Source: Alphaproteobacteria bacterium
GTDB taxonomy: Bacteria > Pseudomonadota > Alphaproteobacteria > UBA9219 > RGZA01
Length of the DNA: 64,000 nucleotides
Direction: 5' to 3'
NCBI GenBank assembly: GCA_033762625.1
Contig: JANRLI010000007.1
Coordinates: forward strand, 1-64,000
Shown here piece after piece: positions 21,911-30,972 of the stretch; the stretch's first letter is position 1; the number at the start of each line of letters is the position of its first letter. The notes under the pieces were generated by a model. The model was given only the letters and a program-made list of their open reading frames with translations, was not told where the DNA came from and searched no databases. The position numbers were made by a program, and so were the translations under genes.

Positions 21911-22810
21911 GTGATGAAGCTGAGCTCTGAGTCTGTCAAACTGAAATTTTTAGCCTTATTATTCATGTGCTGCCTTATCGGGCAGGCGCACGCTGAAGCG
22001 CTGCCAAATGTTAAAAACCTGAAGCTTAGCTATAGCGTTTATTTGGGCGGGATTCATGCCATGGATGGGGTGGTGGGCTTTACCAAAGCGGCAGGTACTT
22101 ACAAAATCAACCTGACGACTGGAACGCAAGGGTTCTTGCGCCATTTAGCGCCATGGGATGCGGAGATTTCATCCAAGGGACGTTTTGTAAAGGCGGCGGT
22201 GCTGCGTCCCAGTGGTAGCAATGTTATGACGAAGTGGAATAACAAGCCGTATAATGTGGGCTTTGCATATAACCGGAATAAGATAAAGGCATTGTTCAAT
22301 CCCCCTGAAGGCGATGGCAATAACGAACATGTGCCGGAAGAAATGAAGCTTGGCGCATTGGACCCGTTAAGCGGGGTGCTGCAAGTGATTTCAAATACGA
22401 CCTATAACGGTGAATGCAATCAAAATGTGCCGATTTACGATGGGCACCGCCGGTTTGATCTAACCTTAAGCAATAGCGGCGAAGAGGATTTGGACGGCGA
22501 AGATTATTCGGTGTTCACCGGCACAGCGCAGCGCTGCATTGTTGATTTCAAAATGCTGGCTGGTTCGCGCAAAGACCGCGAAGGTAGCCATTTCTGGCAA
22601 GACGGAACAGATAACAACAATAACGGCAAAGTAAATGGCCGTTTCGGTAATTCAAGCCGCCCGCCTGTCTATATCTTCCTTGGCAAGGTGCGCGATGATT
22701 TGCCGGAAATTCCAGTACGCGCTGAAACCAGCACGGTGTTTGGCGGTATTGTCGTGCACCTTACCAAGGTTGAAGGCGGCGGCGGAAAAACGCTGACCAT
22801 CCCCGATTAA
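21911..22810 (+). CDS. DUF3108 domain periplasmic protein
   Basis: This 299-residue protein has a signal peptide (LALLFMCCLIGQAHA before EALPNVKNLK). The mature part starts LKLSYSVYLGGIHAMDGVVGF and continues as a beta-rich protein typical of DUF3108, a family of alphaproteobacterial periplasmic proteins of unknown function. LDPLSGVL and TAQRCIVDFKMLAG segments are conserved. It probably acts in the envelope. Its stop overlaps the convergent unknown gene by four bases (TTAA). Confidence 0.7.
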   Translation: MMKLSSESVKLKFLALLFMCCLIGQAHAEALPNVKNLKLSYSVYLGGIHAMDGVVGFTKAAGTYKINLTTGTQGFLRHLAPWDAEISSKGRFVKAAVLRPSGSNVMTKWNNKPYNVGFAYNRNKIKALFNPPEGDGNNEHVPEEMKLGALDPLSGVLQVISNTTYNGECNQNVPIYDGHRRFDLTLSNSGEEDLDGEDYSVFTGTAQRCIVDFKMLAGSRKDREGSHFWQDGTDNNNNGKVNGRFGNSSRPPVYIFLGKVRDDLPEIPVRAETSTVFGGIVVHLTKVEGGGGKTLTIPD

Positions 22811-23175
22811 TTGATAATCGCAGGCTGGCCTATGCGTGCGACCGCGCTTAAGGCAACTTTCATGGCATAGGATGGAATGTATTGCGGGGGCATTCCGTTA
22901 ACAAGATTGCTTGTTACACGGTAGATTTCATAGGTGCCCACCTTGTCAAAGCGCTCACCAATCGGTTCAGCCCAGAACCGCGCAGCAGCATAGCCCTTTT
23001 CATGCCAGTAAACTTCCAGCCGCTTTGCCAAAGCCATGGCACCTTTTTGCGTAAGGTATTCGCCAAGATTGGTTTTTTGTTCGCGCTCCCCGGTATCTAG
23101 GGGGCTATCATTTTGGTCCAATGAAATAAGGATATTCTTGACTTTCTGACCACATTTCTTAATACGAATTGCCAT
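22807..23175 (-). CDS. Conserved-looking protein of unknown function (122 aa)
   Basis: This 122-residue protein shows no recognised domain. It is basic at the start (MAIRIKKCGQKVKN), then has a helical YLTQKGAMALAKRLEVYWHEKG and a small hydrophobic SYAMKVALSAVARIG tail. It lacks a signal peptide or membrane helix. It is divergent from the XRE regulator gene across a 270-base intergenic region that contains operator-like dyads, so it may be a target of that regulator. The stop overlaps the DUF3108 gene. Confidence 0.55.
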   Translation of the reverse strand: MAIRIKKCGQKVKNILISLDQNDSPLDTGEREQKTNLGEYLTQKGAMALAKRLEVYWHEKGYAAARFWAEPIGERFDKVGTYEIYRVTSNLVNGMPPQYIPSYAMKVALSAVARIGQPAIIN

Positions 23176-23328
23176 ATACTATCTCCTTATTATTGTTACA
23201 TTTTAAATAAGTATCCCACTTGGTTCCTTGGGTAAGTGAGACAGCGAAGGGCTGGCATCCAAACACAATCGGACCAAAATTATTGATATCTGTGTACTAG
23301 GGGCGCGGGGGCGAGTGCAACAAGATAA

Positions 23329-23388
23329 TTTGTTTCAATTAACAAAAAATTAGTAAAAATTTGTTGAATAATACAAATCTGCTTGTAT
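23329..23388 (+). promoter_or_regulatory. Twin TTTGT-N8-ACAAA operators upstream of the XRE gene
   Basis: Two identical-geometry dyads occur at 23329-23346 and 23360-23377. Both read TTTGT-N8-ACAAA, and they are offset by exactly 31 bp (three helical turns). A further dyad ATACAA-N6-TTGTAT lies at 23371-23388 and overlaps a possible -10 (TATAGT at 23386). Spaced paired sites are typical of XRE/Cro-type repressor operators, so they probably autoregulate the gene at 23446 and perhaps the divergent gene at 23175. Confidence 0.55.
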
Positions 23389-23445
23389 AGTCAAATTCAG
23401 GTTCTGCTGGGTTTTCAGTTTAATTCCACAAAATGGTAATACATC

Positions 23446-23910
23446 ATGCCGCATAGGAAATCAGGGTTGGGTCAGCGCGTTCGCCAGCTACGCGAGGAGC
23501 GCGGGTGGAGCCAGAATGATCTGGCGGCGCAATTACCCGGTGTCAAACAGCAATCGGTTGATCAGTTGGAAAACGGCAAAGTGGCACGGCCACGTTTTTT
23601 ACCGGAACTGGCCACCGTGCTGCGTACATCGGTGCAATGGCTGTTGACCGGCGATGGCCAGCCAACGGTTAAAAGGGGGCATGCCGGTGATACGACAATT
23701 GATGCAGAATTACTGCGCGATGTAATGATTGCTGTTGAAAAGGTGTTGGCACACAATTCAACCAAGATAGATGAAAAACACCGCGCGGAAATGATTGCAG
23801 TCCTTTATGACATGATGCGCAACGAAGAAAAAGCGACGGCTGAAAAGATGCAACAGGCCGCCAGCAACATTATCAGCTATAGTAAATTCCTCAAGCGCGG
23901 TGGACACTAG
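23446..23910 (+). CDS. XRE-family transcriptional regulator
   Basis: This 154-residue protein has an N-terminal HTH_3 domain (residues 4-60): LGQRVRQLREERGWSQNDLA, the turn LPGVKQQSVDQLENGK and the third helix, as in phage-repressor relatives. A C-terminal helical half (LRDVMIAVEKVLAHN and a long MQQAASNII helix) likely mediates dimerisation. The region just upstream carries paired dyads with spacing suited to a dimer-binding repressor. Targets are unknown; the adjacent divergent gene is a candidate. Confidence 0.85.
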   Translation: MPHRKSGLGQRVRQLREERGWSQNDLAAQLPGVKQQSVDQLENGKVARPRFLPELATVLRTSVQWLLTGDGQPTVKRGHAGDTTIDAELLRDVMIAVEKVLAHNSTKIDEKHRAEMIAVLYDMMRNEEKATAEKMQQAASNIISYSKFLKRGGH

Positions 23911-23933
23911 AACATAAGATTATCGTATTGCCG

Positions 23934-24281
23934 TTAGTGCTTTTGTTGCTGGGCAATAAATTTAAGTGCTTGGGTCAGTTGTCGCCCTTTTAAATCCTGT
24001 AATTGTTCAATATTGAAATGAGTGAGCAATCGCTGCGTGATTTGCTGTTCTGTTTCATGAGTTTCATGGATGCTAAGCAATATCACATTACGAATAGCTG
24101 TGTACTCGTTGATATCAATCGGTCGATTGAATTCGCGCAACCCATAACCCCAAATGATGATGCTTGAAATCAAGCTGATAAAAATGGTCAGGTTGGCGAT
24201 GCGCTTTTTACGTTCACATTGTTTGATGCATGGTAAAAGACTTTTTACCATATCGGCGATGCGTTCCTGTCGCGCTTCCAT
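23934..24281 (-). CDS. Small single-pass membrane protein of unknown function
   Basis: This 115-residue protein has a cytoplasmic basic N-terminus (CIKQCERKKR), one transmembrane helix at about 29-48 (NLTIFISLISSIIIWGYGL), and a mainly helical C-terminal domain rich in Gln and Leu (QLQDLKGRQLTQALKFIAQQ). It resembles no family I know. It converges on the XRE gene. The 24282-24509 stretch upstream of it is AT-rich, shows no other gene, and should hold its promoter. Confidence 0.5.
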   Translation of the reverse strand: MEARQERIADMVKSLLPCIKQCERKKRIANLTIFISLISSIIIWGYGLREFNRPIDINEYTAIRNVILLSIHETHETEQQITQRLLTHFNIEQLQDLKGRQLTQALKFIAQQQKH

Positions 24282-24509
24282 AAAAGCCCCTAGTTATGTG
24301 CATATGCTAGCAGAATCATCTGTGGTGCATGAATTTCTGAATGCGATGGTAGTAGGGTATGATAAACAAAATTTTAATATGTGATGTCGTGATTAATGTG
24401 CATTAGCCAAAGTAAATATGGCCAGCATGCAAGTTGTAAAATGCAATATGAGATAAACATTTTTTATTTTTTATTCGCGGTTTTATTTTTATAAAGTGCG
24501 GTGCAGCAT

Positions 24510-25190
24510 TCAAATTAGTTGTAACGCCAGTCTGCAATCATGCACATGGATGGCATAAGCAGCCGGTTTTAAATCTGCCGGCCAATCGTGATTATAGCCA
24601 TAGGTCAGGATGATGGATGGAATGCCGGCGTCGCGCGCGGATAGGGCGTCATTCGGGCTATCGCCAATCATCACGGCATCGTCATTTGCAATTTTGAATT
24701 CATGCAGCACATGTAAAATTGGCATCGGATGTGGCTTGCGTTCACGCAACGTATCGCCGCCAATAACGATATGAAAATAGTCCGCCAGCTTCAGTTGCGC
24801 CAGAATGCGCCGTGCGGCGGCTTCGTGTTTGTTGGTCACCACGGCCAGCTTTGTGCCGTTTTCAAATTCGGTTTGCAGAAACTCCAGCATGCCAGGATAA
24901 ATACACTCAGGTTTGGCGATAATCCCTTCGTAAATCTTCAAGAATCGCTGCATCAACGCAGGCACACGGTCAGGGGTGAGTGGTTCGACCCCATTGTCTG
25001 TCGTGAGTCGCCATGCTTTCTCCAGCATGACCTTTAAGCCATCCCCCGTGCAGGATTTCATTTCATCCAGCTTGATTTGGCGGCGGTTTTCTTCAGCTAG
25101 CAGGATATTCATTGTCGCGCATAAATCGGGCGCACTGTCGATAATGGTTCCATCAAGGTCAAAAAGAATGGCTTTAAAGCGGTGGGGCAT
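24510..25190 (-). CDS. gph: Phosphoglycolate phosphatase (HAD family)
   Basis: This 226-residue HAD hydrolase has motif I FDLDGTIIDSAPDL at residues 8-21, motif II in VVTNKHEAA, and motif III and IV in GERKPHPMPIL-like TLRERKPHPMP and MIGDSPNDALSARDAG. It dephosphorylates 2-phosphoglycolate from DNA-damage repair and oxygenation side-reactions. The start is put at ATG 25190 (MPHRFKAILFD); a longer frame uses GTG at 25226. It is divergent from glmU across about 60 bases. Confidence 0.82.
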   Translation of the reverse strand: MPHRFKAILFDLDGTIIDSAPDLCATMNILLAEENRRQIKLDEMKSCTGDGLKVMLEKAWRLTTDNGVEPLTPDRVPALMQRFLKIYEGIIAKPECIYPGMLEFLQTEFENGTKLAVVTNKHEAAARRILAQLKLADYFHIVIGGDTLRERKPHPMPILHVLHEFKIANDDAVMIGDSPNDALSARDAGIPSIILTYGYNHDWPADLKPAAYAIHVHDCRLALQLI

Positions 25191-29148: not shown

Positions 29149-30972
29149 ATGTGTGGAATTGTTGGTGTTATTGCAAACCGTCCTGTGGCCAGTCTTGTTC
29201 TGGAAGGGCTAAAGCGTCTTGAATATCGCGGCTATGACAGCGCAGGCATTGCGACCTTATCGGGCGCAACAATCGAACGCCGCCGCGCGCAGGGAAAAAT
29301 CAGCAATCTTGATGCCAAGCTACAGCAGGAACCCTTGCCCGGAAATATCGGCATTGGCCATACGCGCTGGGCAACGCACGGTAAGCCAAACGAAACCAAT
29401 GCACATCCGCATGCGACTAAACGCGTAGCGGTGGTGCATAACGGTATTATCGAAAATTACAAGGAACTGCGCGCCGAACTGGAAAGCAAAGGCTGCACGT
29501 TTCAAAGCGATACAGATACCGAAACTATCGCGCATCTTTTAACATTATATATTGAAGAAGGTATGACGCCCGCAGATGCAACCGCCAAAGCACTTAAACG
29601 GCTGGAAGGCGCATTTGCATTGGCATTGTTGTTTTCAGGCGATGAGCATTTATTGATTGGTGCACGCCGTGGCAGCCCGCTGGCAATTGGTTATGGTGAT
29701 GGGGAAATGTATTTGGGTTCTGACGCGCTTGCGCTTGCGCCGCTTACCAACCGCATTACCTATCTGGAAGAAGGCGATTGGGCCGAGATTAAGCGCGATA
29801 GCGTTGTGGTGCATGATGCGAGTGATGCGGTGGTAAAACGCCCTATCCAGCAAACATCACTTTCCGGTGCGATGATTGGTAAGGCGGGCTATCGCCATTT
29901 CATGCTGAAAGAAATTTTTGAACAGGCGGGTGTGATAGGCGATACGCTGAATTCATTGGTTGACCCTGCAACGGGCGAATTGCAATTGCCTGATTTGCCA
30001 TTTGATTGGAAAGATTTAAGCCGCATCACCCTTATTGGTTGCGGCACGGCGCATTATGCGGGCGTGGTTGCCAAATACTGGTTTGAACAAGTCGCTAAGC
30101 TGTCGGTTGAAACCGACATTGCATCCGAATTCCGTTACCGCGAAGGGCCGATGCCAAAGGGCGGCGTGATGATTGTAGTGTCGCAAAGCGGTGAAACAGC
30201 AGATACGCTTGCGGCTATTCATTATGCCAAATCACAAGGCCAGAAGATTTTAGCAATTGTGAATGTGCTTGGTTCATCCATGACGCGGCTTGCCGATGTG
30301 GTTGTTCCAACGCTGGCGGGCCCGGAAATTGGGGTTGCATCAACTAAAGCGTTTACAACGCAGCTTGTTGTATTGGCTATTCTGGCATTGGATTGCGCGA
30401 TGAAACGCGGCGCCCTTACCAAAGATGAAATGGCAAAACATATAAAAGCGCTGCGTGAAGTACCAAGTGATATTAACGCGGTGGTGCAGCAGCACGAACA
30501 AATCCGTGAGCTGTCGCAGTCATTGGCCGAAGCGCGGGATTGCATTTATCTTGGGCGTGGCCTGAATTATCCCATCGCACTCGAAGGCGCATTAAAGCTT
30601 AAAGAAATTTCATATATTCACGCCGAAGCTTATGCAGCCGGTGAATTAAAGCATGGCCCCATTGCATTGATTGATGAAGATATGCCGGTGGTGGTGCTTG
30701 CGCCGCGCGATGCATTGTTCGAAAAGACCGCATCGAATATTCAGGAAGTCATGGCACGGGGCGGGAAGGTGATTGTGTTCTCACACGAAGAAGGCGTGAA
30801 ATCAATTAATCCAAAGCCGTTCTGGAGCATGGCCTTGCCCGATGTCGATAGTTTTGTATCGCCATTACTCTATGCCGTACCGATGCAATTACTGGCGTAT
30901 TATACTGCCATGGCAAAGGGAACGGATATTGACCAACCGCGTAATTTAGCGAAAAGCGTGACCGTTGAATAA
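29149..30972 (+). CDS. glmS: Glucosamine-fructose-6-phosphate aminotransferase (isomerising)
   Basis: This 607-residue enzyme forms glucosamine-6-phosphate from fructose-6-phosphate and glutamine, the first step to UDP-GlcNAc. The glutaminase half starts MCGIVGVI with nucleophile Cys2, and has GHTRWATHG and HNGIIENY. The isomerase half has two SIS domains with SQSGETADTLAAI and the C-terminal AKSVTVE of the family. Upstream (28923-29148) is an AT-rich leader with a tandem GTTAATTG repeat at 29011-29026; no ribozyme-like structure is evident. Confidence 0.96.
   Translation: MCGIVGVIANRPVASLVLEGLKRLEYRGYDSAGIATLSGATIERRRAQGKISNLDAKLQQEPLPGNIGIGHTRWATHGKPNETNAHPHATKRVAVVHNGIIENYKELRAELESKGCTFQSDTDTETIAHLLTLYIEEGMTPADATAKALKRLEGAFALALLFSGDEHLLIGARRGSPLAIGYGDGEMYLGSDALALAPLTNRITYLEEGDWAEIKRDSVVVHDASDAVVKRPIQQTSLSGAMIGKAGYRHFMLKEIFEQAGVIGDTLNSLVDPATGELQLPDLPFDWKDLSRITLIGCGTAHYAGVVAKYWFEQVAKLSVETDIASEFRYREGPMPKGGVMIVVSQSGETADTLAAIHYAKSQGQKILAIVNVLGSSMTRLADVVVPTLAGPEIGVASTKAFTTQLVVLAILALDCAMKRGALTKDEMAKHIKALREVPSDINAVVQQHEQIRELSQSLAEARDCIYLGRGLNYPIALEGALKLKEISYIHAEAYAAGELKHGPIALIDEDMPVVVLAPRDALFEKTASNIQEVMARGGKVIVFSHEEGVKSINPKPFWSMALPDVDSFVSPLLYAVPMQLLAYYTAMAKGTDIDQPRNLAKSVTVE

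Follow-up and report, generated by a model that had tools for sequence, protein, structure and literature searches.

Organization of the locus

The window, which is the whole stretch of 64,000 nucleotides analyzed here, contains a gene for an XRE regulator and, divergent from it, a gene for a protein of 122 residues (Table 1). The region before the XRE gene has a GC content of 33-34%. The genomic neighbours encode a DUF3108 protein, a HAD phosphatase and a GlmU-like protein, and no sign of a prophage is seen among the neighbouring genes looked at. A convergent gene for a protein of 115 residues (23934-24281), a segment of which looks membrane-spanning by eye, lies downstream of the XRE gene, and a similar frame of 120 residues is present at the same place in the G001 genome. 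The window is part of a draft genome with named relatives among metagenome-derived alphaproteobacterial assemblies. The family set used for comparison consists of five genomes, which are three of the window's genus, its own among them (G000, G001 and G002), and two of a sister genus (G003 and G004). The XRE gene is present in all five.

Table 1. Positions of the genes, predicted operators, dyads and promoter elements
Feature	Position	Strand	Remarks
Divergent gene, 122 aa	22807-23175	-	Conserved in the family
Possible third site, ACAAGATTGCTTGT	22901-22914		Perfect ACAA-N6-TTGT; 3' part of the divergent gene, three genus members
Conserved regulatory core	23318-23392		Six ACAA/TTGT half-sites; 41 of 76 alignment columns invariant in five genomes
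O1, proposed operator, ACAAGATAATTTGT	23320-23333		ACAA-N6-TTGT; 434-operator form
TTTGT-N8-ACAAA site 1, TTTGTTTCAATTAACAAA	23329-23346		Perfect match; O1 right half and a separate ACAA half-site (23342-23345)
TTTGT-N8-ACAAA site 2, TTTGTTGAATAATACAAA	23360-23377		Perfect match; -35 region and O2 left half
-35-like TTGAAT, XRE promoter	23364-23369	+	Adjoins block AAAAATTTGTTGAA, invariant in five of five genomes
ATACAA-N6-TTGTAT dyad, ATACAAATCTGCTTGTAT	23371-23388		
O2, proposed operator, ACAAATCTGCTTGT	23373-23386		ACAA-N6-TTGT; between -35 and -10 of the XRE promoter
-10-like TATAGT, XRE promoter	23386-23391	+	16-bp spacer; overlapped by O2
XRE regulator, 154 aa	23446-23910	+	434-type HTH (about residues 8-70); C-terminal part predicted helical
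Deacetylase-gene site, G000	L063 1474-1489 (contig C2)		AACAA-N6-TTGTT
Deacetylase-gene site, G002	L043 1501-1516 (contig C6)		AACAA-N6-TTGTT

Dyads before the XRE gene

The initial annotation had described twin TTTGT-N8-ACAAA dyads 31 bp apart before the XRE regulator, and both are present with this spacing. When the 145 bp before the XRE gene are dinucleotide-shuffled 20,000 times, the two sites never turn up together, a count made for a pattern that was picked after it had been sighted. When the arms and the gap are left free, a repeated dyad with 5-bp arms is found in 2.1% of 4,000 dinucleotide shuffles of the same 145 bp. One dyad is repeated within 60 bp in the whole window, as compared with 0, 2, 0, 0 and 0 in five shuffled windows, and TTTGT-N8-ACAAA with one mismatch permitted occurs five times in the window, as compared with 4.2 times expected. 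The 2.23-Mb genome contains four perfect TTTGT-N8-ACAAA sites, two of which are at the XRE locus, and nine copies of the reversed control pattern. Because of these shuffle and reversed-control counts, the dyad repeat by itself is weak evidence, roughly what can come out of searching 64 kb. It is given meaning by its position before the XRE gene and by the conservation of the region.

The shorter pattern ACAA-N6-TTGT occurs six times in the window, as compared with 1.47 times expected, and six is reached in none of 100 shuffles. Three of the six sites are located elsewhere, at 30355, 47474 and 63707. Two others are proposed here as operators and designated O1 and O2. O1 is enclosed by a 16-bp palindrome, AACAA-N6-TTGTT, at 23319-23334. 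The initial annotation noticed the ACAA-N6-TTGT pattern once, as an ATACAA-N6-TTGTAT dyad overlapping its sites and covering a possible -10, and overlooked the copy at 23320-23333.

The conserved core contains six half-sites, or boxes, designated a to f from left to right, of which a, c and e are ACAA and b, d and f are TTGT. The successive steps between them in the window are 10, 12, 19, 12 and 10 bp. Sites 1 and 2 of the TTTGT-N8-ACAAA type are the b+c and d+e pairs respectively, and O1 and O2 are the a+b and e+f pairs respectively.

Conservation of the regulatory core

In the alignment of the five genomes, 18 of the 24 core columns inside the half-sites are invariant, and 23 of the 52 outside. 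Half-sites a, d and f are perfect in all five genomes, b is perfect in four, and c and e are perfect in three each. In the sister genus, half-site e has been lost, and this applies to both pairings. The mirror-symmetric order of the half-sites in the window, ACAA-TTGT-ACAA / TTGT-ACAA-TTGT, and the steps given above would be accounted for by an inverted array of two 29-bp arms under a tetramer or larger assembly, but this arrangement is unlikely, given that only a, d and f are perfect throughout.

All eight fixed bases of O1 are kept in four of the five orthologues and seven of the eight in the fifth (G004, one mismatch). The fixed bases of O2 are all kept in the three genus members, and seven and five of the eight are kept in G003 and G004 respectively. 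A scan upstream of the orthologues for the TTTGT-N8-ACAAA pair finds site 1 perfect in two of the five and site 2 perfect in three, although the left halves of both are kept in all five save for one base in G004. Counted per base from the alignment of the five genomes, O1 matches at 39/40 and O2 at 36/40, as compared with 46/50 and 44/50 for sites 1 and 2. Conservation alone thus gives O1 and O2 only a moderate advantage as the predicted binding units.

A perfect TTTGT-N8-ACAAA double with 5-35 bp between its sites is found in one of 32 genomes of the order, which is the window's own. It is not found in the closest relative, and the 31 genomes without the perfect pair include a sister genome with a 94% identical regulator. 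The exact 31-bp repeat is not kept either, since in G003 the left halves are 32 bp apart. A perfect ACAA-N6-TTGT double with 30-60 bp between its sites is found in five of the 32 genomes, and the reversed control in none. This double precedes the XRE gene in G000, G001 and G002 and is imperfect in G003 and G004. The perfect doubles of G005 and G014 are located elsewhere and are taken for chance occurrences. More distant XRE homologues from the order (L009, L013 and L016-L018) were considered as further orthologues and rejected, as they have a different recognition helix and none of the four box patterns upstream.

The XRE promoter (23364-23391) is located at the same position and with the same spacer length in all five aligned genomes. 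Its -10 is TATGGT in G003 and TATATT in G004, and CTTGTAT at 23382-23388 is invariant in all five. A promoter scan of the region lists three promoter-like sites, as compared with 4.6 in its shuffles, and thus without excess. The scan lists no promoter on the leftward strand, and a convincing -10 is not seen after box a. Box a, which in the leftward reading is TTGTTGAAA in G003 and G004, could be the -35 of a leftward promoter. An Rfam search of 22700-24600 gives no match to an RNA element at the gathering score. Between 23200 and 23300, the stretches TTCCnTGGGTAAGTG and CCAAACnCAATCGGACC are kept by the three genus members, and the alignment shows neither of them in the sister genus; these intergenic stretches have no Rfam match.

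DNA-binding domain of the XRE regulator

The regulator belongs to the XRE family by its matches to HTH_31 (41.8 bits, cut-off 27) and HTH_3 (37.9 bits, cut-off 23) of Pfam. No S24 peptidase or autocleavage domain is found among its 10 Pfam matches at E values up to 1. Its best sequence match in the PDB is the 434 repressor (residues 8-74, E value 9.6e-15), and the match to 434 Cro is weaker (2.5e-6). A family-profile search gives 434 repressor entries at 1e-18 to 7e-17. The model of the regulator superposes on 434 Cro (Z 12.4, 1.1 Å, 65 residues) and on a 434 repressor variant (Z 12.3, 0.9 Å, 64 residues). The fold alone cannot single out 434, because the P22 c2 repressor ties in the fold search (Z 12.0). 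The fold-search results span mainly residues 4-72 and barely probe the C-terminal part, for which the helical prediction is of lower confidence.

The segment KQQSVDQLENGK...RPRFLPELA of the regulator aligns with TQQSIEQLENGK...RPRFLPELA of the 434 repressor. Gln28, Gln29 and Gln33 of the 434 repressor contact DNA, and Q35, Q36 and Q40 of the XRE regulator, which are invariant in all five orthologues, occupy their positions. The RPRFLPELA and WLL.G stretches, which make the dimer in 434, are likewise kept in the regulator. This result implies a 14-bp ACAA-N6-TTGT geometry for the binding site, rather than TTTGT-N8-ACAAA.

Recognition helix and upstream sites in outside relatives

The relation between recognition helix and operator was examined at 68 loci with relatives of the regulator outside the family, which fall into 55 clusters by similar upstream regions. 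These loci include all 22 viral-contig loci, 16 of 35 phage records, 5 of 17 plasmid records and 2 genome-contig loci outside the family, plus 16 and 7 further loci. The 250 bp upstream of each was used, measured from the protein match and not from the start codon. ACAA-N6-TTGT is present upstream in 10 of the 13 clusters with all three glutamines, in one of the two clusters with QQ only, and in none of the 39 clusters with other residues. The corresponding counts for TTTGT-N8-ACAAA are 0/13, 1/2 and 0/39. One cluster cannot be aligned over the helix and carries neither pattern. When the gap of ACAA-Nn-TTGT is varied from 2 to 12, n is 6 in 16 of the 21 sites of the three-glutamine class. The difference between 10/13 and 1/41, for which the two QQ-only clusters are pooled with the others, gives a Fisher value of 1.2e-7, which is not a clean probability, because three of the 13 clusters are from one genus (L119-L121), the 434 group itself is one of the 13, and the upstream stretch is measured from the match. 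The QQ...Q helix thus appears to pair with ACAA-N6-TTGT across phage and chromosomal relatives.

In the initial annotation, each of the two TTTGT-N8-ACAAA dyads would be bound by one dimer of the regulator, cooperatively and on the same DNA face. Perfect in the window as these sites are, they are rejected as the operator on account of the pair in one of 32 genomes, of the alignment of the five genomes and of the helix-matched clusters; the type of the helix and the outside relatives favour ACAA-N6-TTGT as the binding unit, and binding in the way first proposed is very unlikely. The same-face argument survives loosely, with the steps between half-sites given above and with O1 and O2 53 bp (54 bp in G003), or about five helical turns, apart.

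It is also very unlikely that the conserved block is mainly a core promoter with A/T-rich DNA upstream of it, or the site of another regulator, with the XRE regulator acting elsewhere: the two strictest blocks, AAAAATTTGTTGAA and CTTGTAT, do coincide with the -35 and -10, and the GC content of the region (33-34%) agrees with this reading, but O1 is kept to the extent given above although it lies upstream of the promoter, and the link between helix and operator in the relatives speaks against a mere core-promoter block.

Proposed model for autoregulation

The region is probably an autoregulated promoter of a chromosomal XRE regulator with a 434-type domain, for which O1 and O2 are the predicted operators. 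A dimer would bind each 14-bp operator with one recognition helix per half-site. Occupancy of O2, between the -35 and -10 and over the -10, would block RNA polymerase and repress the regulator's own gene. O1, which is better conserved, would probably serve cooperative binding, or reach a leftward promoter of the 122-residue gene, or both. Autoregulation, which the initial annotation had already suggested, is likely, because the XRE gene has sites in its own promoter, one of them over the -10, in a block conserved before five orthologues; autorepression in particular is likely, because the -10 that O2 overlaps belongs to a conserved promoter. The sequences and their conservation, the kinship of the protein with 434 repressor and the association of helix and operator among relatives are observed, whereas binding, repression, cooperativity and control of the divergent gene are inferred. 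The roles of O1 and O2 may be balanced differently in G003 and G004, because O2 is degraded there. Several results count against this model. Besides the degraded O2 of the sister genus, the O1 mismatch in G004 and the lack of an excess of promoter-like sites, the operators are spaced unlike those of 434 (53 bp as compared with 22-23 bp) and miss the second R of the Sf6 operator note. Three of the 13 glutamine clusters have no ACAA-N6-TTGT site, and the extra half-sites at 23342 and 23361, the latter of which adjoins the -35, are unaccounted for by O1 and O2. Overall, the locus would be an ordinary kind of switch of a well-known type, with well-supported details.

Divergent gene and possible further targets

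The divergent gene is found in five of 33 genomes of the order, the same five as the XRE gene, and not in the other 28. Among 385 genomes sampled from the class, a 58-residue piece of its product is present in two, which both belong to the window's genus. The middle of the protein (about residues 39-99) is strongly conserved, and the searches made find the protein only in the family. It has no Pfam, NCBIfam or HTH match, no match in the phage collection and a single weak match to a PHROG of unknown function (E value 0.002), and its model is poor (mean pLDDT 48.2). Control of this gene by the XRE regulator is plausible.

A possible third site, ACAAGATTGCTTGT, lies within the divergent gene. Four of the five codons at this site agree between G000 and G001, as compared with 23 of 51 in the block compared, and its conservation may reflect codon conservation or chance. 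Genome-wide counts of AACAA-N6-TTGTT and of its reversed control are 9 and 7 in G000, 9 and 11 in G001, 7 and 4 in G002, 2 and 28 in G003, and 3 and 0 in G004. Given these counts, single sites of this form carry little weight. In G000 and G002, one such site with conserved flanks precedes a polysaccharide deacetylase (DUF3473) gene, about 31 bp ahead of its likely start. None is present in the 320 bp before the deacetylase gene of G001, even with up to two mismatches, and no polysaccharide deacetylase gene is found in G003 or G004 at an E value of 1e-20. This gene is a possible second target of the regulator.

A wider scenario joins these elements, in which the chromosome of one alphaproteobacterial family would have acquired a 434-type repressor domain that lacks the autocleavage domain and forms a two-promoter switch with the 122-residue partner, with the six half-sites as a mirror array and possibly distant sites in the partner gene and before the deacetylase gene. 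As a whole it is unlikely.

A predicted operator is obtained from sequence alone for an uncharacterised regulator. Which half-sites pair is decided by the recognition helix and not by visual dyad symmetry, and the pairing of QQ...Q with ACAA-N6-TTGT could aid the annotation of other XRE genes. The orphan 122-residue gene, observed to date in a single family, gains its first candidate regulator.

Comparison with known systems

The 434 record marks OR2 and OR3 as features, and the record of phage Sf6 gives for the right operator three sites that follow ACAARNNNNRTTGT and notes identity to 434. In each record, ACAA-N6-TTGT is matched perfectly at two sites and with one mismatch at a third. O1 and O2 conform to ACAA-N6-TTGT and to the first R of ACAARNNNNRTTGT and miss the second R, which the first 434 site likewise misfits. 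The operator form rests on the Sf6 note, the OR2 and OR3 features of 434 and the sequence, because the passages of PMC3317979, PMC8163980 and PMC5977221 concerned do not state the operator letters.

The locus resembles 434 CI and OR in the DNA-binding domain, the recognition glutamines, the ACAA-N6-TTGT sites before the repressor gene and the presence of a divergent gene opposite. It differs from them in that no S24/LexA-like C-terminal domain is detected in the 154 residues of the regulator, in that two operators are 53 bp apart whereas OR has three at 22-23 bp, and in that the divergent protein has no HTH match whereas 434 has a divergent cro. For these three reasons the regulator, which carries a 434-type DNA-binding domain, is not classed among the lambdoid CI repressors. 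434 Cro, a short repressor, lacks a protease domain and acts at the same operators as CI. The XRE regulator shares the HTH fold of Cro but is about 80 residues longer than its 71-residue chain, and the extra part is predicted to be helical. The alphaproteobacterial relatives L024 (249 residues) and L119-L122 (frames of 221-261 residues) are longer than the XRE regulator, and their C-terminal domains are guessed, from their length and from reading L024, to be of the S24 type. Like the XRE regulator, these relatives combine the QQ...Q helix with ACAA-N6-TTGT upstream.
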